Source of the DNA: Patescibacteria group bacterium
Lineage (GTDB): Bacteria > Patescibacteriota > Minisyncoccia > Phycocordibacterales > SBAW01
Assembly (NCBI GenBank): GCA_016176685.1
Contig: JACOWS010000005.1
Coordinates: forward strand, 1 to 34,991
Length of the DNA: 34,991 nucleotides
Direction: 5' to 3'
Shown here one piece after another: positions 4,921 to 26,207 of the stretch (position 1 is the first letter of the stretch; every line of letters begins with the position of its first letter). The translations under genes and the position numbers were made by a program. The notes under the pieces were generated by a model, which was not told where the DNA came from, searched no databases, and saw only the letters and a program-made list of their open reading frames with translations.

Positions 4921-6087
4921 CTAGCGGTGCTCTATAGCATCTTTTAGCTTTCCCAATTCTGCTTTTGCTGTGGAGCTTGCAAATGCCGCCTCCCCGTCGG
5001 AAAGGTTTTGTGATAAAAGTTCCGCGAGTCCTCCTTGGCCCTCTGCCGTCAAGCTGCGGTTTATATGCGCTATGGTAATAGCGCGCAGGTCGCGCTCGGC
5101 CGTTGAGGTGGCGGCGGTAGAGGTGACTATAATGCCGGCAAGCTTGCCGTCCTGTGCGCGCACCACCGCCCCGCCGGACGATCCCCCCTGCGAAACAACG
5201 GTTCCGCCTATGGAAAAAAGGTCTACCTGCTGTGGGTTGTCAAAGGTAAACAGTCCGCGCACGGCCGCATAGGCCGAAGTAATATACAAATTAAGCGTTA
5301 TCGTTTGTCCGTCAAGAAACCCGGCCGGGTATGCCGCCAGTAGCATACTGTCGCCCGGCGTTGGCAAGGAACCTGTCATGGCAATGAACGGGAAAGTGGT
5401 CGGGAAAGGAATACTCGGCCCTGTTGGCCCCGTAATGTGCAAAAAGGCGTAGTCGTGCTCCCCGGTGCCGGTCCCTTGCTCCTGTACTATCTGCGAAGCG
5501 TTGGCATCTACCCACGCGGGCGGCAGATACAATAATTCTGCACGGTACATAGCGCGCGCGGGGCTGCCGGTGCGCAGTACACAGTCGACATTGCCCTCTG
5601 TGGGGTAGTCTCGCAGTAAAAAGTATTGCCCAACGTGCGCGTTGGTAAGCACCACACCGCGGCTGTCGACCAAAACTCCACTGCCGGATATAGGTTTAAA
5701 AGAGCCGCCCGCTTTGGTGGTACATAAAATGTTCACTAACGCCTCGCGGGTTTGTGTGTTGAGGACGGTTGAGTCTATAGCGGGCGCGAGGGGCAGGGCA
5801 GGAGGGGTTGAGGGCGCCACTGGTGTTGCAATGGGCGCGGCGGCGGTTTTGTGCGCAGGGGTGGGCTCCTGTGGCGTTACAGGGGTACTTAGTGTGGGCG
5901 GCACCTCTGCTACAGTAGAGGTCGCTACCTCTACAGATACTTGCCACTCTCCTGCCACTGGAGTTTCTCCAGCCATTGGAGTAACTGATGTGTAAGTAGA
6001 GAGCGAGGTAAAAAACCCGCCAAGAGCTATTAAGACAGCGGTAGCAAACAGCGCAAGCTTCCCCAGTAGCGAATAAAAGAAATCCAT
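4921..6087 (-). CDS. Trypsin-like serine protease with N-terminal membrane anchor and Pro/Thr-rich linker
   Basis: GSGVLVDSRGVVLTNAHV (His), HDYAFLHI (Asp), VVSQGGSSGGAVV (Ser) catalytic motifs. Confidence 0.8.
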   Translation of the reverse strand: MDFFYSLLGKLALFATAVLIALGGFFTSLSTYTSVTPMAGETPVAGEWQVSVEVATSTVAEVPPTLSTPVTPQEPTPAHKTAAAPIATPVAPSTPPALPLAPAIDSTVLNTQTREALVNILCTTKAGGSFKPISGSGVLVDSRGVVLTNAHVGQYFLLRDYPTEGNVDCVLRTGSPARAMYRAELLYLPPAWVDANASQIVQEQGTGTGEHDYAFLHITGPTGPSIPFPTTFPFIAMTGSLPTPGDSMLLAAYPAGFLDGQTITLNLYITSAYAAVRGLFTFDNPQQVDLFSIGGTVVSQGGSSGGAVVRAQDGKLAGIIVTSTAATSTAERDLRAITIAHINRSLTAEGQGGLAELLSQNLSDGEAAFASSTAKAELGKLKDAIEHR

Positions 6088-6246: not shown

Positions 6247-6413
6247 CTATCGAGGAATTTGCAAGCCGGAACTCGCCGCCGCGCAGGGCACGGCGGCTCG
6301 CGCGCACTGCCATTTAGGGTTTATTTCGAATCTGCCGTTTCGCATTGGAAAAAGGCATTTTGGGGCATATAATCCTTAATCACTGGAATCTCCTTGTTTT
6401 GGCCACCGCGAGC

Positions 6414-6442
6414 TTGACGCGATTACAGGACTATGCTATAAG
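6414..6442 (+). promoter_or_regulatory. Sigma70-type promoter TTGACG-17-TATAAG
   Basis: 17-nt spacing; GACTATGCTATA string shared with promoter at 18105. Confidence 0.7.
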
Positions 6443-6516: not shown

Positions 6517-6777
6517 ATGCTCGAAACCATTTTGACCGCTTTGGTGTGGCTCGGAGGTGGCTATCTCTGCGGAGAGTTCATCATCCGCTGGAATCAACGC
6601 CACCTCCTCGGTGATCATGTGAGCACCAAGAAGCTCGCGGTAGCCCTTCGGCTCAATGCCGATTTGAACCTCTACCGAGGCACTAAGGTCCCGCATTGGA
6701 GACTGATTCTCACTCTCATGGGGCCGATCACGATTTCCAAGGCCGCTTTGCTGCGACTGTGCGGCGGGCCGACCTAA
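6517..6777 (+). CDS. Small hypothetical protein with N-terminal hydrophobic segment
   Basis: AAAAAGGAGG Shine-Dalgarno 8 nt upstream of ATG; follows promoter. Confidence 0.7.
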   Translation: MLETILTALVWLGGGYLCGEFIIRWNQRHLLGDHVSTKKLAVALRLNADLNLYRGTKVPHWRLILTLMGPITISKAALLRLCGGPT

Positions 6778-10342: not shown

Positions 10343-10558
10343 TTAAAGTTCTTTCACTTCTATAGCGTAACGCTTACCGTCAGCGTCCTCTTTGACGATT
10401 TTGTTGTCTTTGGCAATATCCAAAAGCTTCATTCCTTTTAGAAGTACATCAACAGGAGTGGTATCAAAGTTTATTGCAAGCTCATTCAACTTCTTCAAAG
10501 CCCCGTTGGTAAAATTAACAGTTAGCTTGTCTTCCTTTTTTGTAGTTTCCTCGGCCAT
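10343..10558 (-). CDS. Small hypothetical protein
   Basis: MAEETTKKEDKLTVNFTNGALKKLNELA; TATACT 6 nt upstream of ATG on minus strand. Confidence 0.55.
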   Translation of the reverse strand: MAEETTKKEDKLTVNFTNGALKKLNELAINFDTTPVDVLLKGMKLLDIAKDNKIVKEDADGKRYAIEVKEL

Positions 10559-10857
10559 GATTTTAGTATAGCAAATTGCCTTATTTCTTGCGCTCCCTAC
10601 GGGTTTTTTTCTTAGACTTACCAATAACACCAAGTGCCTCGTCAAAGCCGAGGTTGATAGGGACGTGGAGTTTGGATTTGCGCCCTCGTGGGTCTTTCTT
10701 TTTCATGAGCACTTCTTGTACTTTAACAAGATGCTACTTAGTTCCGATTCTATCGTACACACTTTCACCAAAAAGCTTCCGGTTGTAAGCCCAAAAAGGA
10801 ACCACGCCAAGACAAGCACTATAGTTAGTTTGAACCAGTTCTCTTTTAGAAAGCTTT

Positions 10858-11460
10858 TCATGCGGTCAATGCCTTGTAAGATATTTTACCACGCTTGGCG
10901 ATTTTTGCTGTAGCCAAGTCAAACTTTATATCCATGCCGTTCTGTCGGTCAGGAATAGGAAACGCTCTCATGCGACTTCCGCGTTCTGTCATGCCCATTA
11001 CCGCTGTCTTTTTAGAAAAGCCGTACTTGCGGTTATTTTTACCGCCGAGATAGGTTTCGTCTGCCTCCACCACGCCTATCAATTTGCCCCGACCTTGCTT
11101 TAGAGCCTCGCGGATACGCATATCCATAAACCAAGCGGTCTTTTGGATTACGCCGACCTGCTCCGCCAACGAGATAGAGGAGATACCCTTCTTGGAGGTT
11201 GTAAGGAGGTAGATAGCGATAAACCACTTTTGCATAGGTAACTTGCTCTCGCCAAAGAGCGTACCCGTCTTGATAGTAAAATCGCGCTTGCACTTGTCGC
11301 AACGATACCGCTTGTCGTCAGCAAAGCGCATTATCTTAGTGTGCTTACAATGCGGGCAGAAATCCCCCTTAGCAAAGCGGATAGCCTCAAAATGTTTGCG
11401 GCAAGCCGCCTCGTTATTGAAATGCCCCGCAAACTGCGCCAATGTCTTAAACTCTTTCAT
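10858..11460 (-). pseudogene. IS1595-family transposase, C-terminally truncated
   Basis: CRKHFEAIRFAKGDFCPHC zinc ribbon, KLPMQKWFIAIYLLTTSKKGISS, VVEADETYLGG; the expected second half of the DDE domain is missing. Confidence 0.75.
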
Positions 11461-11633
11461 ACTCCTATCTTATACCCGTTAGTTAGGGTAGTCAAATGCT
11501 GGAAATAGTACAAAAGTAGACAACTACTTTGTCAAATCAATGAACTGTTTATAACTTCTTGCAATATTCACCTGCCTAGTGGTAGTATGTTCGTACGTCA
11601 CCTCGCCCGGCCTTGCGCCGGGTTTTTCCGTCC

Positions 11634-12206
11634 CTACTTTGTACGCGGCTTGCGCTCAACTGCGTCCCTAATTGAGTCAAGAGATACAAACCAAGAACCT
11701 TCTCTTATTTCCCAAGCGCAATTGTTTTTATAAGCAACAAACTTGATACGTTTCTGTTGCTGTAGGATATTGTCTTTGGTACGCATGAAATCACTATCAC
11801 CGCTTGCTATATAGACCATATCTAGATCTGACAAGTCCTTCATTATTTCGTCATGCATCTCGACATCAAAGTTACATTTATTTTTGAAACCTTTTGGGTC
11901 GGACGAGTCGCGTAGTTTTTTGAGAGGTTTACCTGTCACCTCAAAACCCTCGCGCTCCCAATATTTAATCAATGCTTCGCTGATGGTCTTGGCTGGCTCA
12001 TACTTTGGAAGTCCTTTATAAATACGAGCGTGTACCACCTCATTAACTTCTGCAACCCACTTGTGGAGTTTTACATAGTCTGTCAACCACCCTGTGGCCC
12101 TACCGCGTTTGAAAAGGTTTGAGTCATCAATATAAATACCCACCTTCGGTTTAGGTGGAAGTGACGACAAGAACTCATAGGCAAACTCATGTAGAGGCCG
12201 GTACAT
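11634..12206 (-). CDS. NYN-domain (LabA/DUF88-like) protein
   Basis: VGIYIDDSNLFKRG, YIASGDSDFMRTKDNI motifs. Confidence 0.8.
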   Translation of the reverse strand: MYRPLHEFAYEFLSSLPPKPKVGIYIDDSNLFKRGRATGWLTDYVKLHKWVAEVNEVVHARIYKGLPKYEPAKTISEALIKYWEREGFEVTGKPLKKLRDSSDPKGFKNKCNFDVEMHDEIMKDLSDLDMVYIASGDSDFMRTKDNILQQQKRIKFVAYKNNCAWEIREGSWFVSLDSIRDAVERKPRTK

Positions 12207-14995: not shown

Positions 14996-16189
14996 TTACT
15001 CCGGTTTTTCCGCGGCCTTACCTTCCGCCTTTTCTTCGGTTTGCTCTTCGGCCTTGGCAAGCTGCTCGCCCTTGGCAGATTGTATATCGATGCGCCAGCC
15101 GGTCAGCTTTGCCGCCAGGCGCACATTTTGCCCGCCGCGGCCTATGGCAAGCGACTGTTGGTCCTCGGCTACCATAATGCTCGCTTTATGCTCTTCTTCT
15201 TCTAGCGTTACCGACAGTACTCGCGCGGGGGAGAGCGCTTCCTCTATAAACGCCTTCGGGTCTTCCGACCATTCTATGATGTCGATTTTTTCGCCGCCTA
15301 GCTCCGAGGTTACGGTTGAGACGCGCACGCCCCGCTGGCCCACCAAGGAACCCACCGGGTCTACATGTGCATCGCTCGAGGCGACAGCCACTTTGGAGCG
15401 GCTGCCCGCTTCGCGCGCGATGGCTTTAAACACCACCGTGCCGTGTGCCGCTTCTGGTACCTCCATTTCAAACAGCTTGGCCAAAAATTGCGGGTTCGCG
15501 CGGGAAAGGCGCAGGTATATCCCGCGCGGCGACTCTTCCACCTGATAGAGCAATGCGCGCAGGCGCTCGCCCTGGCGGTAGCGCTCGCCGGGTATCTGCT
15601 CTTCGTAGGGGAGTATCCCGGTGGCGCGGCCGAGGTCGACATAAATGTTGCCGCGCTCCATGCGCTGCACCGTGCCGGAGACGATTTCTCCCGCCCGCTT
15701 GCCAAACTCGGCCACGACGGAAACCTTTTCCGCCTCGCGGATTTTTTGGATAATCACCTGCTTGGCGGTTTGTGCGGCGATGCGGCCGTAGTCCTCTCTG
15801 ACCTCAAGCGGGAAGATTAGTTCGTCGCCCAGCTCGGCGTCGCGCTTAATCAGTTTTGCATCCTCGAGCACAATGTGCTGTTCGGGGTTAAAGCGGGACA
15901 AAAGCTCCTCGTCGGTCATCTCCTGCGGCGGCTTCTGCGTCGCTTCTTCATCGCCCTCTTTTACAAAACGTACGGTCGACTTGTCCACCACCACTTTTAC
16001 CTGGCTGAACTCCGTGGTGCCAAGGTCGAGGTTGATGTGCGCGCGGATAATCTGCCCCTTTTTTGCATATTCTTTTTTGTAGGCGGTAGCAAGCGCGGCC
16101 TCTATCGCCTCGATCACTTTTTGTTTCGGTATCCCGCGCTCTTCTTCAAGCTCGCTCAAGATAGATTGTATTACTTTGATGTCAAACAT
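14996..16189 (-). CDS. nusA: Transcription termination/antitermination protein NusA
   Basis: S1 domain GEIVSGTVQRMERGNIYVDLGRATGILP, KH domain VGQRGVRVSTVTSELGGEKIDIIEWSEDP; start set at MFDIKVIQS. Confidence 0.95.
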   Translation of the reverse strand: MFDIKVIQSILSELEEERGIPKQKVIEAIEAALATAYKKEYAKKGQIIRAHINLDLGTTEFSQVKVVVDKSTVRFVKEGDEEATQKPPQEMTDEELLSRFNPEQHIVLEDAKLIKRDAELGDELIFPLEVREDYGRIAAQTAKQVIIQKIREAEKVSVVAEFGKRAGEIVSGTVQRMERGNIYVDLGRATGILPYEEQIPGERYRQGERLRALLYQVEESPRGIYLRLSRANPQFLAKLFEMEVPEAAHGTVVFKAIAREAGSRSKVAVASSDAHVDPVGSLVGQRGVRVSTVTSELGGEKIDIIEWSEDPKAFIEEALSPARVLSVTLEEEEHKASIMVAEDQQSLAIGRGGQNVRLAAKLTGWRIDIQSAKGEQLAKAEEQTEEKAEGKAAEKPE

Positions 16190-17952: not shown

Positions 17953-18018
17953 AAATAGCAAAAATAGGCGAAATATCCTTATTTTAAGGTGTTTTTTGTA
18001 TATTTTGTGCCTATTTGC

Positions 18019-18047
18019 TTGACAAATGTCAAGATTGGGTGTATACT
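18019..18047 (+). promoter_or_regulatory. Sigma70 promoter TTGACA-17-TATACT, -35 within palindrome TTGACAAATGTCAA
   Basis: Near-consensus -35/-10 with 17-nt spacing. Confidence 0.85.
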
Positions 18048-18104
18048 AGTAACAGATACTTCAGCATAGGGTAGGTCGCAGCTCGGGGTCCCAAAGAGAG
18101 GGGC

Positions 18105-18133
18105 TTGACAAGAAAGACCGACTATGCTATACT
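18105..18133 (+). promoter_or_regulatory. Second sigma70 promoter TTGACA-17-TATACT
   Basis: Near-consensus with 17-nt spacing; GACTATGCTATA shared with 6429-6440. Confidence 0.85.
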
Positions 18134-18139
18134 AAAAAA

Positions 18140-18290
18140 AGTTAACGTCGAGGCACCCTAAAATAGTTTGAACGGAAACAGTCTTTTAGAGGAAGGTTGT
18201 GACCTAGAGCAAGCTCTATATATAGATATAGAAAAGCGGCCGGGAAACACTCTTAACCTTAAAGAGCAGTTTCTCGGCCGCTTTTCTTGT
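18140..18290 (+). ncRNA. Candidate structured small RNA or leader
   Basis: Downstream of promoter; CTAAAA/TTTTAG, AGGT-tgtg-ACCT, TAGAGCAAGCTCTA, then 18-bp hairpin GAAAAGCGGCCGGGAAAC/GTTTCTCGGCCGCTTTTC; no obvious ORF. Confidence 0.5.
18231..18290 (+). terminator. Terminator-like hairpin followed by CTTTTCTTGTT
   Basis: 18-bp stem 18231-18248 / 18269-18286 with one G-T wobble; weak U-run. Confidence 0.6.
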
Positions 18291-18486
18291 TAAGAGAAGT
18301 GCGGGAGCGAAAACAAATTAAACAATGTCGCTCTCCCGCTTCTCTCCGCAAGAGAGAACAAATAGTTAGTACATTCGTTGGAAGCAAGCATAACCACCTT
18401 GTTTCCAAAAATGTCCTCGCTACGACAGTATGTGCAGTCGGTGAGTGGGACGGAACTTTGACAGATGAATAGCAGCAAGGAGCAAA

Positions 18487-18651
18487 GTGAAAAAACTGCT
18501 CGCAAGAGCGATCACAATGTTGTTCCTCGTTGCCGGACTGACTTCACCTAGGTCGGTACGGTACGAGGGATCGCATCCCGCGCGTGTCGATGTTCTTCGC
18601 CCCGATTGGCGGGGCACTCAATGGAGGAAAAAATGTCGAAAAAAGTTGTAA
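18487..18651 (+). CDS. Small putative secreted/membrane protein (GTG start): MKKLLARAITMLFLVAGLTSPRSVRYEGSHPARVDVLRPDWRGTQWRKKCRKKL
   Basis: AAGGAG 4 nt upstream of GTG; signal-peptide-like N-terminus; not in the ORF track. Confidence 0.5.
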   Translation: MKKLLARAITMLFLVAGLTSPRSVRYEGSHPARVDVLRPDWRGTQWRKKCRKKL

Positions 18652-18749
18652 GAGAAAATTCTTGGGCCGAGGCATTTATTGCCTTGGCCGTCGGCATCGC
18701 CATCGCCATCGCCATCGCGGCGACGTTTTACCTCTCCTTCCCCCACTAA
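18633..18749 (+). CDS. Small single-TM protein MSKKVVRENSWAEAFIALAVGIAIAIAIAATFYLSFPH
   Basis: GGAGG upstream; TM helix; overlaps end of previous ORF by 19 nt. Confidence 0.55.
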   Translation: MSKKVVRENSWAEAFIALAVGIAIAIAIAATFYLSFPH

Positions 18750-18765
18750 TAAATGTGGGGGAAGC
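18737..18765 (+). repeat. Hairpin CTTCCCCCAC-taataaat-GTGGGGGAAG straddling the small ORF stop codon
   Basis: Perfect 10-bp inverted repeat. Confidence 0.8.
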
Positions 18766-18991
18766 CGGCGAGCGTGACTTGGTTGTCGCGCTCGCCAAAA
18801 GGTTTTTGAGCGAAACCTTTTCAAAAAATTCGCTCCTTTATACCCCCAACGAGCACAGTGCTGGGAAGGGGTTTGAGTAAAAAGTTAACCCGCCCGCGCC
18901 TGGGGCAGAAAATACAGGCCAAGGCAGGTAGTAGCGCACCTGCCGAAAGGAGACTCTCACTGAAGCCAAGCGGCTGAGAGAGTTTAAAGAG

Positions 18992-19246
18992 ATGTATACA
19001 CCCAAGACAATTTTGCGCGCTGCCCTCCTGTTCGAGGGCGAGCAGGCCATGGGCCTGCTCGCGGCCGAGCACGGCTGCCAGGCCCTTGCCGCGGAGATTC
19101 TCCGCGGCGAGCGGCCGGCGCAATCGCGCCGGCCGCTCATGGCGGCCGAGCAGGCCGCCCGCGTGGCGGCCCTGCGTGCCGCCCGCGCCGCCGAGAAGGC
19201 GGCGTTCGCCGCCAATTTGGTGGCGCTCAAGGCCAAGTACAATTAG
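18992..19246 (+). CDS. Orphan Ala-rich 84-aa protein, coding sequence tiled with hairpins
   Basis: Open frame MYTPKTILRAALLFEGEQAMG...; several perfect inverted repeats within the ORF. Confidence 0.6.
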   Translation: MYTPKTILRAALLFEGEQAMGLLAAEHGCQALAAEILRGERPAQSRRPLMAAEQAARVAALRAARAAEKAAFAANLVALKAKYN

Positions 19247-19337
19247 GCCCCTTGAGCGAAGAGGTTGAAAGGTCCTCTTAAAAAACTTTCACGCTACGCA
19301 CTCCGGCGGGGGAGGAGTGCAAATAAGGAGAGACGCC

Positions 19338-19427
19338 ATGTACATGGTTCTCCCAAATGGCTTGGTGGTTCCTGTGACCACCAAGCACGAGGCGGCCAAG
19401 GTCGCCTCGACCGAACGCGCTCGTTGA
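19338..19427 (+). CDS. 29-aa orphan protein MYMVLPNGLVVPVTTKHEAAKVASTERAR
   Basis: AAGGAG 10 nt upstream; three back-to-back hairpins in 90 nt. Confidence 0.45.
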   Translation: MYMVLPNGLVVPVTTKHEAAKVASTERAR

Positions 19428-19822
19428 GCGTGTTCGGGCACCCAAGCTCTCTGTGCAAAACGGCTTGGTAGTTTGTAGGTTCTTCGGGAAGGAAGAGATA
19501 CCGAAGTATGGAGGCGACAAGTGGTTACTGTCGTCGCCTCTCTTGAGCTCATCATTAAAATTAATGACGGTTTCAAGAGGGGTTGTGTAAAAAAGCAATC
19601 CCTAAAGTTCCGATTTGCTGGCCCTAACACAAGTCGCCACCCACTGTATTCGTGGGAGGTTGCGGCAACTCCGGCAAATCGATGCTTCTGTTAGTAGTGT
19701 GTGCGTAATCTCCATGACCACTCCTGGAAAGGAGCGGCTCTTGCCTGTCGATACGGAGGCAAGTCCTACGGGAGACCCACTAGCCGTGGCATTCCCGCTG
19801 CGGCAAATTCATGGAGAGCGAG

Positions 19823-20257
19823 ATGACCACCAAGCATTTCTTTTATTCGGTGGGGGCTAACACCCCGAAGTCTGGTTTGAATTACCTCACCCACTCCGGA
19901 AGAGTGTGGTGGGACGGCAGCCGTGAGGCTACCGTCAATGCGGCGCAGGCCGCACTTGCGGCCTATGATGTGGCAGGAAACTGCCACGCACGGGCTATTG
20001 AAGTTGAGGTCTCGGAAGAGATCGGGTTGATCTCACGGATCAACGTATGTGATCTCCGCTCGATGTCTCGCGACATCGAGTCGGAAGACCGCCGCGACTG
20101 GTGGGTCGGCGGCCACGAGGTCGCCGACCCGAAATGGGCCCAGGTCGACTCAGTAAGAGTCGACCACCCACAACAGGGCTACCCGTACGAGTGGGAGCTC
20201 AGAGTGGGAGGCAGGCTCGAGCCTGAACCTCCCACCCTTATTGACGGCGAGGACTAA
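19823..20257 (+). CDS. Orphan hypothetical protein (144 aa), hairpin-tiled
   Basis: MTTKHFFYSVGANTPKSGLNYLTHSGRVWWDG...; GGAG upstream; about ten local inverted repeats. Confidence 0.65.
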   Translation: MTTKHFFYSVGANTPKSGLNYLTHSGRVWWDGSREATVNAAQAALAAYDVAGNCHARAIEVEVSEEIGLISRINVCDLRSMSRDIESEDRRDWWVGGHEVADPKWAQVDSVRVDHPQQGYPYEWELRVGGRLEPEPPTLIDGED

Positions 20258-20330
20258 ACCAACCCTCGCCGTTTCGGTGATTGGAGCACCGTAAAAACTC
20301 CAAAAGAAGTTCTTCGTTCGAATTCACTTC

Positions 20331-20516
20331 GGCGGGTGCACGAGGTCCAAACCTTCCGCACCCGCCCCCTTTCAAGCGCTTTAGGCCCTAGGCCTAGAGT
20401 ATTTGAAAGGGGAACTTATTCTCCTCTTGCATGACACTTGCACACCCAGGTGTCGTGCGGGCGCGGCGGCTGTCTAGTAACTAATACGGTAATGCGTATA
20501 GCGAACGGCAGCCGCC
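20331..20516 (+). ncRNA. Candidate structured 3' RNA of the orphan island
   Basis: GGCGGGTGC/GCACCCGCC, CCCTTTCAA/TTGAAAGGG, GGCGGCTG/CAGCCGCC stems in series; no convincing ORF. Confidence 0.4.
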
Positions 20517-20667
20517 GATGCCCTCTTTATGTTTGCTGCTGATGTAGCCCCCAGGGAGCTGTGAGTGGAATCCTCTACACTTCTATACGCTTAATGTAAA
20601 TCGCCTCGCGCGTTTTTACGCTGAGCTTGTTGAAGCGCCATTCGCAGCTCCGTGGCGACTACCCGCC

Positions 20668-20702
20668 CAAAAACCGCCTCCATTTCGGGGGCGGTTTTTA
20701 CG
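20668..20702. terminator. Bidirectional terminator-like hairpin AAAAACCGCC...GGCGGTTTTT
   Basis: 10-bp stem with A/T runs. Confidence 0.85.
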
Positions 20703-20710
20703 TTGGGAGA

Positions 20711-20977
20711 TTAGCGGTAGACCTCATGGTCGCCCACGGCAAGCAATATCACTTCGCCTTTGCTTTTGTCAGTATAGGAAAACACAATGCGGTAACGATA
20801 GTTGACCGAAAAACCACGCCGACCCGCGAGAGGCCCTTTAAGTTTGTGCACATGAAGCCACTCATGATTCATTGTGTTTTTGAAGTCCTCTATTCTTTCA
20901 AATGCTTCGTGTTGAAGCGCGAGCGGAAGTTTCTTGAATTGTCGCCTAAACTGCGGGGACAAATGGACAAGCAACAT
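20711..20977 (-). CDS. RelE/YoeB-like toxin of a type II toxin-antitoxin system
   Basis: HLSPQFRRQFKKLPLALQHEAFERIEDF, LKGPLAGRRGFSVNYRYRIVFSY, VGDHEVYR. Confidence 0.85.
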   Translation of the reverse strand: MLLVHLSPQFRRQFKKLPLALQHEAFERIEDFKNTMNHEWLHVHKLKGPLAGRRGFSVNYRYRIVFSYTDKSKGEVILLAVGDHEVYR

Positions 20978-22105: not shown

Positions 22106-23185
22106 ATGAACCTGCGAAGTATTAAAGAAGCCGATATCGGCGGCAAGCGCGTGTTGATGCGCGCCGACTTTGATGTGCCCCTGGAGGGCGGGCGAGTGGT
22201 AGACGACACGCGCATCCGCGCGGTACTGCCCACGCTCGAGCTTTTGCACGCGCGTGGTGCTGCTAAGATAATTTTATTGGCCCACCTGGGCCGCCCCGGG
22301 GGCAAGGCGATAGAAGGTCTGCGTGTCGCTCCCGTGGCCATGCGCCTGCACGAACTTACCCGCGTCCCGTTTGAGTTGCGGGAGAATCTGCGCTTCGACC
22401 CGCGCGAGGAGGCAAACAATGCAGGATTTGCAAAAGAATTAGCGGGCCTGGGCGACGTGTTTGTAAACGAAGCATTCGCCGACTCGCATCGTGCACACGC
22501 CTCTATTGTTGGAATACCAACATTTTTACCAAGCTACGCGGGCCTGCGTTTACAAGAGGAGGTTACACAACTCTCTCGCGCACTTACCCCGCCCAAAGGC
22601 GCGGTGGCCATCATTGGCGGTGCCAAGTTCGAAACAAAGGTGCCCCTCCTAACGGTACTTATAGAGCATTACACCCACATACTTTTGGGGGGTGCTTTGG
22701 GTAACGACATAATCAGGGCGCGCGGGTTCCCCGTGGGCGTGTCGACCGTTTCAGCTACGCCCGCTCCTGAAGTGCTAGCCAGAAGTGACCGCTTGCAGGT
22801 GTCTGAGGACGCAGTAGTCGCAGAAGCGGGTGCCAATGCCGAGCGCACTTGTTTGGTAAACGACATACGCGCAAACGAGCGCATCATAGACATCGGGCCG
22901 CGCACTCGCGCGGTGTGGGGCGAAGTGGTCTCGCACGCACCTTTTGTATTGTGGAATGGTCCGTTGGGTGTGTATGAAGAAGGATACAGAGATGGCACCG
23001 ACGCGGTTGCCGCCGCATTGGCAGATGCAAAGGTGCGCGCCGTGGTGGGCGGTGGCGACACCATTGCCGCACTTTCTAAACACTCGTTTGACCCGGCCAA
23101 AGTCTTCCTTTCAACTGGTGGTGGAGCGATGCTCGAGTTTTTGGCACGCGGCACTTTACCAGGCCTCGAGCCGCTGAAAGTGTAG
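22106..23185 (+). CDS. pgk: Phosphoglycerate kinase
   Basis: GKRVLMRADFDVPL, LLAHLGRPGG, VNEAFADSHRAHAS, AIIGGAKFETK, GGGDTIAAL, STGGGAMLEFL. Confidence 0.97.
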   Translation: MNLRSIKEADIGGKRVLMRADFDVPLEGGRVVDDTRIRAVLPTLELLHARGAAKIILLAHLGRPGGKAIEGLRVAPVAMRLHELTRVPFELRENLRFDPREEANNAGFAKELAGLGDVFVNEAFADSHRAHASIVGIPTFLPSYAGLRLQEEVTQLSRALTPPKGAVAIIGGAKFETKVPLLTVLIEHYTHILLGGALGNDIIRARGFPVGVSTVSATPAPEVLARSDRLQVSEDAVVAEAGANAERTCLVNDIRANERIIDIGPRTRAVWGEVVSHAPFVLWNGPLGVYEEGYRDGTDAVAAALADAKVRAVVGGGDTIAALSKHSFDPAKVFLSTGGGAMLEFLARGTLPGLEPLKV

Positions 23186-23193
23186 AGGAGCGG

Positions 23194-23260
23194 ACAAACC
23201 CCTGCAAAGAGAGTAGGACTTGGCCTAGCGGCCCGGAGCGCTCTCTTTGCAGGGGTTTGT
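23194..23260. repeat. Long palindrome, family B copy 1
   Basis: Arms ACAAACCCCTGCAAAGAGAG / CTCTCTTTGCAGGGGTTTGT (20 bp perfect) around 27-nt core TAGGACTTGGCCTAGCGGCCCGGAGCG. Confidence 0.95.
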
Positions 23261-23272
23261 TCGTGTAACAGA

Positions 23273-23632
23273 CTAGAGAGCCGCTCGCAGTTTTGCCGCG
23301 TTGCCCATGAGGTCATTCTTGTCGCCCACGACTCCACTTTCGGGGAAGACCCAAATATGCGCGTGGGCGACCTCGTCGCCCACAATTTTTGAAAGTATCC
23401 ACTGCGTATTAAATGCTTTGCGCTGTGCGAGCGCGATTTTCTTTACCACTTCGAAGTACGCGCCGACATCGGGGACATCCCACACCCATTGGATGTGTTT
23501 TTTTGGGACCACTTGGGCGTGGCCTGGCGCGTGCGGGCGGTTGTCGAGGAACGCCAAAAAATTTTCGTCCTCGTACACCTTGGAGGCGGGCACCTCCCCG
23601 GAAACGATTTTGCAAAAAATACAGTTATTCAT
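23273..23632 (-). CDS. HIT family protein
   Basis: MNNCIFCKIVSGEVPASKVYEDENFLAFLD, HAPGHAQVVPKKH; C-terminal HAHIWVFP replaces the usual HxHxHxxP. Confidence 0.9.
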   Translation of the reverse strand: MNNCIFCKIVSGEVPASKVYEDENFLAFLDNRPHAPGHAQVVPKKHIQWVWDVPDVGAYFEVVKKIALAQRKAFNTQWILSKIVGDEVAHAHIWVFPESGVVGDKNDLMGNAAKLRAAL

Positions 23633-23637
23633 GTCTT

Positions 23638-23711
23638 GGCTAAGCAAAAACCCTTCGTGCAGGAGTAGGGCTCCCGTTCATCTCTCCGGAGCGAAGGGTT
23701 TTTGCTTAGCC
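23638..23711. repeat. Long palindrome, possible diverged family B copy
   Basis: Arms GGCTAAGCAAAAACCCTTCG / CGAAGGGTTTTTGCTTAGCC (20 bp perfect), loop shares GAGTAGGGCT and CCGGAGCG with 23194 element. Confidence 0.85.
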
Positions 23712-23729
23712 TAGTATATACTAGGCGGG

Positions 23730-25490
23730 ATGAAATCCTACCGCCTGCGCGAGCGGCTGCACGACGAACTGATTTTTGACCTCTTGTATTCGCGGGGTAT
23801 CGAGGGAGAGCAGGATATTAAAAATTTTCTCGAGCCGGACTTTGTCCGCGACTCCGGCGACCCGTTTTTGTTGCCCGACATGGGCGTGGCGGTGGAGCGT
23901 CTGCTGTCTGCGAAGAAAAATGGCGAGCAGGTAGCCGTGTGGAGCGACTACGACTGCGACGGCATCCCCGGCGGGGTGATGCTCACCGAGTTTTTGCGCG
24001 CGGTGGGTTTTACAGCCCGGCACTACATCCCGCATCGCCACACGGAAGGATACGGGCTTAACGAAGACGGCCTTGCTGAACTCGCACAGACCGGTGTCAA
24101 AGTTATTATCACCATAGACCTTGGCACCACCGAGCACGAGTCTATATCCTATGCAAACAAAAAAGGAATTGATGTGATAGTTACCGACCACCACCAGGTG
24201 TCCCCCACATCATATGCTACTCCGGAGACTGAGCCACCCGCGAAGCGGGTAATAGGATCCGGGGCGGCATATGATGTGGGAAATTTGCCTCCGGCGCTCG
24301 CGGTCATCAACCCCAAGCGCGCCGATTCGGCATACCCATTCAACGGCCTGTGCGGCGCCGGCGTGGCGTGGAAGCTGGTGCAGGCGATTTTGTCAAAAAT
24401 GAGAGAGGGCGGGCAACCCTTCGACTACGCAGAGGGTAAAGAAAAGTGGCTCCTAGACCTTGTGGGATTGGCAACCCTGTCCGATATGGTTCCCTTGGTG
24501 GGAGAAAATAGGATGCTCGCGCACTTTGGGCTCACGGTGATGCGTCGCAACCGCCGCCCGGGGTTTGCCGCACTCCTAAAGCTTTTGCGTATAAAATCGC
24601 ACACGCTTACCGAGGACGATATCGGGTTTATGGTGGCGCCGCGCATCAACGCCGCCTCACGCATGGACAGTCCGGAAGCGGCCGCCCGGCTTTTAGCAAC
24701 AGAAGACCCGGCAGAAGCGCGCGAGCTTGGCGAGGCGCTCGAAGCGCTCAACAACCAGCGCAAGGGCTTGGTTGCCGCGACGGTCAAAGAGGCAAATCAT
24801 CGCCTCGCGCAAACATCAGTCGAGAGTCCGGTCATTGTGATGGGCAGCCCTTCGTGGCGGCCGGGGATATTGGGGCTTGTGGCAAACTCGCTTATGGGCG
24901 CACATGGCAAGCCGGTTTTTTTGTGGGGTAGGGAAGGAGGTGAAACTCTCAAAGGGTCATGCCGCTCCGATGGCGCGCTAAACGTGGTTGACCTTATGGG
25001 CACCGCCCAAAGAGCTCTGCCCGACGGGGTGTTTGAAGATTTTGGCGGGCACCATGCGGCAGGCGGATTCTCACTCACGCAAGAGCGAGTACACGAGCTG
25101 CCAACGCGGCTCGCCGGTGCGTACGAAACTTTGCGCAAGATCTCTTCAGTAGTTGAGCCGGTTGTGCTGGAGCGCGAGGTAGACCTTGCGGAAGTAGGCC
25201 ACGCCCACACAGCGTTGGCGCGACTGGCCCCCTTTGGCGAAGGCAATCGCAAGCCGCTTTTTATCTTCCCGCGTGTTTCTCTCGAGGGAGTGCGGATGTT
25301 TGGTAAGGCGCAGGACCACTTGGAAATAAAGTTGAGCAAGAACGGAGTGCGAGTACCGGGTGTTTCATTTTTCTCTAGTCAGGATTCTTTTTCAAAAAAA
25401 GTAGAAGCAGGATTGACCGCCGACATAGTAGGGCATATAGAAAACGATTGGCGCGGCGGTCCACGCGTCCGTGTTACGGATGTTATCTAA
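23730..25490 (+). CDS. recJ: Single-stranded-DNA exonuclease RecJ
   Basis: SDYDCDGIPGGVML, VIVTDHHQV, LCGAGVAWKL, INAASRMDSP, GGHHAAGGFSL; carries an in-frame insertion. Confidence 0.95.
   Translation: MKSYRLRERLHDELIFDLLYSRGIEGEQDIKNFLEPDFVRDSGDPFLLPDMGVAVERLLSAKKNGEQVAVWSDYDCDGIPGGVMLTEFLRAVGFTARHYIPHRHTEGYGLNEDGLAELAQTGVKVIITIDLGTTEHESISYANKKGIDVIVTDHHQVSPTSYATPETEPPAKRVIGSGAAYDVGNLPPALAVINPKRADSAYPFNGLCGAGVAWKLVQAILSKMREGGQPFDYAEGKEKWLLDLVGLATLSDMVPLVGENRMLAHFGLTVMRRNRRPGFAALLKLLRIKSHTLTEDDIGFMVAPRINAASRMDSPEAAARLLATEDPAEARELGEALEALNNQRKGLVAATVKEANHRLAQTSVESPVIVMGSPSWRPGILGLVANSLMGAHGKPVFLWGREGGETLKGSCRSDGALNVVDLMGTAQRALPDGVFEDFGGHHAAGGFSLTQERVHELPTRLAGAYETLRKISSVVEPVVLEREVDLAEVGHAHTALARLAPFGEGNRKPLFIFPRVSLEGVRMFGKAQDHLEIKLSKNGVRVPGVSFFSSQDSFSKKVEAGLTADIVGHIENDWRGGPRVRVTDVI
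24204..24280. repeat. In-frame palindromic insertion element, copy 2
   Basis: Core 24224-24268 matches 4288-4332 at 43/45; arms CCCACATCATATGC / GCATATGATGTGGG. Confidence 0.92.
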
Positions 25491-25595
25491 CTCGTTATTT
25501 TAAAGGCTGCTCCTTTTCGGAAATTTCTCTGCATTGGTGTTACACAACATCTCCGACATTCACCCCGCTATTTACAATGCTCTCCCCCTACTGCA

Positions 25596-25633
25596 ACACA
25601 CTAACTCATAGCTATAGCGTATACTTAGTGTGT
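25596..25633. repeat. Palindrome C1: ACACACTAA-CTCATAGCTATAGC...-TTAGTGTGT
   Basis: 9-bp arms; TAACTCATAGCTATAGC shared with 26223 element. Confidence 0.85.
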
Positions 25634-26207
25634 GGGGAAATTAGAGGTAGAACATACCAGAAGGCAAAGACGAACCGACCTTCAAAAGGTGGTGCTTGGC
25701 ACTGTTGCAGCCGCCGGCGTATTGAGTATTGCGCTGGTGGCGCCAAATGTACTCGGGGCTCTTAGTAAGTTGGGAATGATCCCCACGAAAAGACAACCCG
25801 ACTCTATCCGTGCCGCACGCAACCGGTTGGTACATCATGGCTTTTTACAGTACGAAGGGAAGATGTTGCGCTTGACGGCAGAGGGAGAGAAAAAACTTCG
25901 TTCGCTCGAACTACACAACTATCAGATCCCTAAACAAAAACGGTGGGACAAAAAATGGCGCGTCCTTATTTTTGATATCCCTGAAAAAAGAAAATCATTG
26001 CGAGAAAAAATACGCCGTACCCTTGCGGTCATCGGTTTTGTGCGGCTGCAAGACAGTGTGTGGATCTACCCGTACCCGTGCGAAGATCTTATTACGCTGC
26101 TCAAGGCAGATTTTAAAATAGGGAAGGATGTGCTGTATATGATAGTCGACACGCTCGAATATGACGCGCCAATTAGAGAGCGGTTTGATTTAAGTGTTTT
26201 GTCCTAA
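25632..26207 (+). CDS. PaaX-like C-terminal (Cas2-fold-like) transcriptional regulator
   Basis: KRWDKKWRVLIFDIPEKRKSLREKIRRTLAVIGFVRLQDSVWIYPYPCEDLI; wHTH-like region LRLTAEGEKKL; probable GTG start. Confidence 0.75.
   Translation: MGKLEVEHTRRQRRTDLQKVVLGTVAAAGVLSIALVAPNVLGALSKLGMIPTKRQPDSIRAARNRLVHHGFLQYEGKMLRLTAEGEKKLRSLELHNYQIPKQKRWDKKWRVLIFDIPEKRKSLREKIRRTLAVIGFVRLQDSVWIYPYPCEDLITLLKADFKIGKDVLYMIVDTLEYDAPIRERFDLSVLS

Follow-up and report, generated by a model that had tools for sequence, protein, structure and literature searches.

A hairpin-rich gene island opened by a boxA-containing leader RNA in the genome of an ultrasmall Patescibacteria bacterium

Dense local RNA structure fills a stretch of about 2.55 kb in the ~550-kb genome of a Patescibacteria group bacterium (contig JACOWS010000005.1 of assembly GCA_016176685.1, of which we analysed positions 1 to 34,991, a stretch of 34,991 nucleotides hereafter called the window). 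This island begins with a leader RNA that carries a boxA motif and two mutually exclusive helices, and that constitutes a new covariance-model RNA family. We give about even odds (a probability near 0.5) to the reading in which RNA polymerase, modified by boxA antitermination in the manner of rRNA operons and phage nut sites, transcribes the island as a replaceable accessory operon.

The structured island and its 144-aa ORF

The island is found in the gene order nusA (minus strand), pilB, island, a weak ParE/HigB-like match with a small ORF (minus strand), tpiA and pgk; its features are collected in Table 1. The ParE/HigB-type toxin match (20711-20977, minus strand) falls below the cut-off and, together with the small neighbouring ORF upstream, which extends to about 21197, may by its sequence form a toxin-antitoxin pair.

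Table 1. Features of the island and its leader, in window coordinates
Feature	Position	Strand	Basis
Whole structured island (~2.55 kb, several small ORFs)	18151..20700	+	fold excess, stem count
Promoter P1, TTGACA-N17-TATACT	18019..18047	+	kept in L018, L019, L021, L023, L024
Promoter-like site P2, TTGACA-N17-TATACT	18105..18133	+	consensus match only
Terminator-like (attenuator-like) hairpin, promoter-to-boxA interval	18230..18290	+	inverted repeat, comparison of loci
Leader RNA (boxA and switch), 123 nt	18453..18575	+	covariance models R1, R2
boxA motif GAACTTTGACAGATGAATAG	18453..18472	+	leader alignment; also in 23S leaders of the order
Strand a GCAGCAAGGAG, partner of strand b	18472..18482	+	permutation test
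Hairpin TGCTC-GCAA-GAGCG, GNRA tetraloop	18497..18510	+	
Strand b TTCCTCGTTGCC, partner of a or c	18523..18534	+	permutation test, covariation
Strand c CGGTACGAGGGA, partner of strand b	18559..18570	+	covariation
38-aa ORF with SD, one predicted membrane helix (by eye)	18633..18749	+	
84-aa ORF, hairpin-tiled	18992..19246	+	z -4.6 (codon shuffle) and -7.2 (re-synthesis)
29-aa ORF with SD (AAGGAG)	19338..19427	+	
144-aa ORF (hairpin-tiled orphan)	19823..20257 incl. stop	+	sequence, codon-shuffle folding
Conserved 3' hairpin element CCCCTTTCAAGCGCTTTAGGCC / GGCCTAGAGTATTTGAAAGGGG	20362..20413	+	inverted repeat, DNA comparison
Probable transcript end, hairpin AAAAACCGCCTCC/GGGGGCGGTTTTT	20669..20699	+	inverted repeat, sequence read; absent from scan list

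The first-pass annotation had described the 144-aa ORF as tiled by local hairpins. All ten hairpins that it quoted (10/10) were found on reading the sequence, the tenth, GGCGAGG..CCTCGCC, overlapping the stop codon and reaching about 20270; an additional in-frame ATG is located at 19811. The minimum free energy of the ORF was -219.3 kcal/mol, as against -172.6 +/- 6.5 kcal/mol in 60 synonymous-codon shuffles (z -7.1), and its z was -5.5 relative to re-synthesis by the codon usage of its own genome, while control coding pieces from TPI, PGK, PilB and RecJ gave z -0.7 to -2.6. The excess over codon-preserving shuffles on which the annotation had staked its claim is thus present. The structuring is real in this ORF, yet its unit is the whole island rather than the single ORF, and the annotation, right about the tiling, had overlooked both the island and its boxA/switch leader.

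At the scale of the window, the region 18.0-20.7 kb had a mean z of -5.2 versus -0.8 in the remainder (dinucleotide shuffles, 200-nt windows). In a scan by stretches that took in 548.8 of the 550.0 kb of the genome, 18151-20700 (+) ranked first in fold excess over shuffles, with a mean of -16.6 kcal/mol per 150 nt against a genome mean of -2.0 (SD 2.4); the 2.55-kb windows with 16S and 23S rRNA reached -12.7 and -11.7 kcal/mol per 150 nt, both below the island. By local stem counts the island supplied the top five of 2128 overlapping 2.5-kb windows, the richest with 31 stems against 15.0 on average across the genome (SD 4.1), and both of its strands fold well. Ranks 2-6 are taken by the rRNA windows and by strongly structured 2.5-kb stretches of contig C6 which have ORFs of 150-490 aa and no leader (150451-153000, 67951-70500 and 94201-96750, minus strand); a group I intron match above cut-off (RF00028; L161, 88593-88812, plus strand) lies within a stem-dense stretch of the same contig. 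The 16S (10377-11855) and 23S (22932-25747) genes, both on the minus strand of contig C4, are separated by about 11 kb and consequently do not lie within one ordinary operon.

A DNA search of relatives returned three conserved blocks in constant order, corresponding to the promoter (18018-18059), a leader block (18350-18586) and the 3' hairpin. The palindrome TTGACAAATGTCAA overlaps the -35 element of P1. Between promoter and boxA, the 19-nt arms of the terminator-like hairpin are 95% complementary and are followed by TTTTCTTGTT; a strong hairpin with a T-run occupies the equivalent place in at least 10 other loci, and this arrangement looks like an attenuator in sequence. A TCTTTAGAGGAG-like motif also recurs in the promoter-to-boxA interval, near 18186-18195 in the window and in L019, L021, L022, L024 and L025. 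The 3' hairpin element is 88-93% identical to its counterpart in L018 and to two copies in L022, which are placed 809 bp apart (5562-5606 and 6371-6422).

A leader RNA family with boxA and two mutually exclusive helices

The leader matched no Rfam family at or above the gathering cut-off in an Rfam scan. Covariance model R1, built from nine sequences, recovered about 22 genomes at or close to E <= 1e-4, several of them in other families of the order, and R2, built from 20 sequences, matched 18 of 398 genomes sampled within the order. Among 384 genomes sampled across the phylum the sole R2 match was the window's own genome (0/383 others). In all, the models place the leader in about 30 genomes of at least 10 families within one Patescibacteria order, and relatives with leader-pattern matches carry the names Candidatus Adlerbacteria, Kaiserbacteria, Nomurabacteria and Paceibacterota. 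Five matches with E above 1e-4 (L077-L081), of which L078 and L080 may be real, are doubtful and were excluded from the island counts. The core pattern was not found in viral contigs, and matches in Streptomyces and haloarchaea were taken as chance or coding matches. A coding origin of the leader, from a GTG ORF at 18487, was rejected because aligned relatives differ there by indels.

From 5' to 3' the family consists of boxA (TCTTTGACAACTGAATAG), strand a, a small hairpin, strand b (TTCCTCGTYGCC), an inner hairpin and strand c (CGGTACGAGGGA). The small hairpin is present in most leaders, and 13 of the 25 have it capped by a strict GNRA tetraloop. In the b-c helix 94.9% of alignment cells pair, compared with 39-52% when the partners are slid by 1-3 columns, in an alignment that was fitted to the model and is expected to lean somewhat towards pairing; through b-c and the inner hairpin, two-sided changes occur at 14 of 18 pairs. 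Since a-b varies in register, cognate strands were compared with permuted ones. Cognate a-b and b-c pairing each beat 20000 of 20000 permutations, and the a-c control, unlike both, stood at 6705 of 20000; relatedness among the sequences is retained in the pair counts as in the permutations. Because a-b and b-c share bases of strand b they are mutually exclusive, each with covariation (relatedness retained), and the leader was classed as working like a switch or attenuator.

Weaker leader-like matches occur 1-2 kb apart within single islands, as if the leader were repeated (L076, 2785-2905 and 763-871, minus strand; L069, 5136-5276; L075, 6029-6168). Contig C1 of genome G343 bears two leader-led islands (15706-15847 and 41037-41161), about 25 kb apart, with a gene family in common.

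Few parts of the leader are as well conserved across families as boxA. A TTTGACAACTGAAT-type motif is common to the island leaders and to the 23S rRNA leaders of the order, where it reads CCTTTGACAACTGAATTCC (G018), TCTTTGACAACTTAATTGC (G015), TTTTTTGACAACAGCAA (G219) and CACTTTGACAATATAATTCC (the window's own genome), about 150-175 nt before 23S; the motif is short. The NusA gene adjoins the island, and NusB was found in 12 of 13 genomes searched. No Rho gene was detected in the window's own genome, nor a convincing one in any of the 13 genomes of the order searched; weak Rho matches in relatives were judged, from their frames of ~460-525 aa and low scores, to be F1-ATPase. The usual role of boxA is action against Rho, and this role is therefore not applicable where no Rho gene was found. 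Nor would boxA be able to act on the terminator-like hairpin, which lies upstream of it. The rrn-type complex built on boxA is also resistant to intrinsic terminators and pausing and has been proposed to aid rRNA folding (PMC10250234), and some non-rRNA genes are likewise under boxA action (PMC5725501).

Islands in related genomes

Confident leaders open hairpin-rich islands of about 1-9 kb, with structure running through ORFs of up to 577 aa. In these loci the fold excess starts at or just before the leader and extends some 1-7 kb downstream, and the upstream genes are mostly near zero, with the exception of L074, where structure is also found upstream. The same was observed in a held-out test, in which 5 of 5 loci found only by R2 opened structured islands, with mean z of -2.2 to -4.5 from 0 to +2 kb and of -0.1 to -0.4 upstream (four loci with an upstream control). 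In 21 islands (68 kb) we counted 751 stems against 326 in shuffles.

The non-Watson-Crick positions of these stems show that the hairpins are selected in RNA across the island set. G.U outnumbers A.C by 395 to 169 in the 21 islands, versus 96:93 in shuffles, and by 81:42 in the held-out islands, versus 24:20 in upstream flanks. Since a G.U position becomes a mismatch in the opposite strand and in hairpins formed by DNA, this excess indicates selection on the leader-sense RNA. The window's own stems stand at 12:13, that is, without bias, so the argument rests on the set of islands. On the codon-shuffle excess and the G.U bias the 144-aa ORF and its kind were classed as working like the structured mRNA of RNA-phage genomes, and together the two lines of evidence support the whole-ORF RNA structuring in a bacterial chromosome that had been proposed from the window. 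The conserved pairing that had been suggested as a check was sought in homologous ORFs of sister islands: of 10 directed comparisons, 7 kept more pairing than expected, and most had an excess of compensatory double changes. The 144-aa ORF has no detectable relative, so that its own stems are not checkable by homology.

Homologous island ORFs are under protein-level selection. Of six ORF pairs compared between islands, the three with measurable dS gave dN/dS of 0.14-0.19, synonymous sites being saturated in the other three. Low dN/dS with hairpins partly kept means that protein and RNA are both constrained, with turnover of the hairpins. The unpaired fraction is 0.37 at ORF starts versus 0.21 in ORF interiors. 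Most island proteins (88/119) are singletons in this set. The recognised cargo comprises AAA-Csx3 (E 1e-44), Csx20 (6e-6), a DHH_CorA-associated hydrolase (5e-35), a DEAH-type helicase, an HD hydrolase, a MoxR-type AAA protein and a nucleoside diphosphate kinase. Some protein families recur across islands of different families in the order, which points to a shared gene pool. In the window, the 144-aa ORF has no homologue in Pfam, NCBIfam, PADLOC or relatives and an uninformative AlphaFold single-sequence model (mean pLDDT 38), and family profile searches returned no family for the 84-aa ORF.

Seven members of the genus have an island at the equivalent pilB-tpiA place, of about 1-4.4 kb and with different gene content; tpiA could be placed in 33 of the 35 genomes of the genus. 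Among the 18 genomes examined that lack a confident leader, the pilB-tpiA gap is about 20-70 bp in 15 and 226-673 bp in the others (G008, G009, G022), and the junction is likewise short in five genomes with the leader elsewhere (G005, G006, G016, G019, G028). Occupied and empty junctions together identify the island as a discrete unit subject to gain, loss or movement. Among the island proteins scanned we recognised no mobility gene and no integrase, capsid, terminase or other phage gene, and the islands were not classed as a prophage or integrative element.

A possible mode of transcription and its alternatives

In the boxA reading, the 144-aa ORF would be one gene of a replaceable accessory operon of about 18.02-20.70 kb, transcribed as a single highly structured RNA from a sigma-70-type promoter through the terminator-like hairpin into the leader. 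By analogy with the order's own 23S leaders, boxA would recruit NusB/S10 and other Nus factors to RNA polymerase, and the resulting pause- and terminator-resistant enzyme would transcribe several kilobases of message so rich in hairpins that polymerase lacking the modification would be prone to pausing or termination. The helices beside boxA probably act as a gate, a-b being able to form first and b-c displacing it once strand c is made. The ORFs would be real genes with relatively open start sites, and the most likely purpose of the hairpins is to give compactness and a long life, as in rRNA, to a message transcribed strongly and translated weakly, with processivity or concealment from RNA-guided immunity as further possible purposes. 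The cargo would turn over quickly, elsewhere including proteins of cyclic-nucleotide-type defence or counter-defence. Counted against this reading are the shortness of the motif, the hairpin upstream of it, the failure to find Rho, the orphan ORFs and even G.U:A.C ratio of the window, and the moderate structure of other regions of the genome.

The two covarying, mutually exclusive helices and the terminator-like hairpin upstream would also suit a metabolite- or protein-sensing riboswitch or attenuator, in which the boxA likeness is secondary and the ORF hairpins serve mRNA stability or translation damping. We consider this unlikely, given that boxA is among the parts best conserved between families and matches the 23S leaders, that family searches recognised no common metabolic cargo, and that a simple riboswitch leaves kilobases of hairpin tiling unexplained. 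Promoter, boxA, hairpin and variable genes do follow the order of a nut region, and AAA-Csx3, Csx20 and DHH-type proteins in some islands, as well as a single occupied site beside empty ones, would be in keeping with a decayed phage or other mobile element whose nut-led accessory region encodes counter-defence proteins, the hairpins shielding its transcript from RNA-guided nucleases (type III CRISPR, for example). The want of any recognised integrase, capsid or terminase, the absence of the leader pattern from viral contigs and the fixation of the island at one site within a clade make such an origin distinctly unlikely.

That the island is a long noncoding structured RNA of the OLE/ROOL/GOLLD kind, with incidental ORFs, might be suspected from the strongest fold excess in the genome and the orphan ORFs of the window; it is highly improbable in view of the protein-level selection, SD sites and open starts of sister-island ORFs, and of the limitation of sequence conservation to the leader and 3' hairpin, on which ground one conserved large RNA fold was rejected. 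A cause at the level of DNA, whether cruciforms or palindromes left by template-switch mutation, would account for the good folding of both strands and the 12:13 ratio of the window, but it is barely credible against the leader-sense G.U excess of the 21 islands and the held-out set, with near 1:1 ratios in shuffles and upstream flanks, and against structure that sets in at the leader and follows its orientation; it was set aside on the G.U excess.

The known parts, boxA, attenuators and ring-nuclease families, are of familiar kinds. With the rRNA operon antitermination leader (boxB-boxA-boxC; NusA/B/E/G) the island shares boxA and the kilobases of structured RNA that follow, but it has protein genes downstream, two competing helices after boxA, and no Rho found. 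With the lambdoid nut site (boxA and boxB hairpin) it shares a promoter, boxA, a small, often GNRA-capped hairpin and variable genes, whereas the stem of its leader hairpin is not fixed in sequence, a larger switch follows, and it is chromosomal and absent from viral contigs; no N-like protein was recognised among the island proteins with family matches. The processive antitermination RNAs HK022 put and Bacillus EAR are structured and leader-like, with a proposed action on RNA polymerase that prepares it for a long operon; the comparison with them is limited to the Rfam scan, in which the island leader had no match. OLE, ROOL and GOLLD are likewise long, highly structured bacterial transcripts, from which the island differs in having no single conserved fold, no Rfam match, and ORFs under protein selection. 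The RNA-phage (Leviviricetes) genomes invoked by the first-pass annotation also have coding sequence dense with local hairpins, and the likeness holds as an analogy; as kinship it fails, the island being DNA-encoded and chromosomal, with no replicase, coat, maturation or other phage gene recognised.

A limited search of Rfam and the open-access literature returned no described system of hairpin-tiled protein-coding islands behind a boxA switch, and the novelty is provisional because the literature search was limited. Tentatively, and at somewhat less than even odds, we propose a previously undescribed class of gene island in ultrasmall bacteria, in which protein-coding cargo selected for hairpin tiling of its RNA is opened by a boxA/switch leader to rRNA-mode transcription. 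Such islands would come, go or move as units and would draw on a common pool of genes, some orphan and others of defence or counter-defence type. Composition-adjusted structure above that of rRNA is not expected of bacterial mRNAs over kilobases and across unrelated genes; here it is linked to a conserved leader and recurred in all held-out loci. If the boxA mechanism is true, bacteria in which no Rho was found use rRNA-style processive antitermination for accessory protein genes, and the purpose of boxA without Rho becomes directly testable. The leader model also provides a searchable handle on a hypervariable Patescibacteria gene pool whose biology is mostly unknown.
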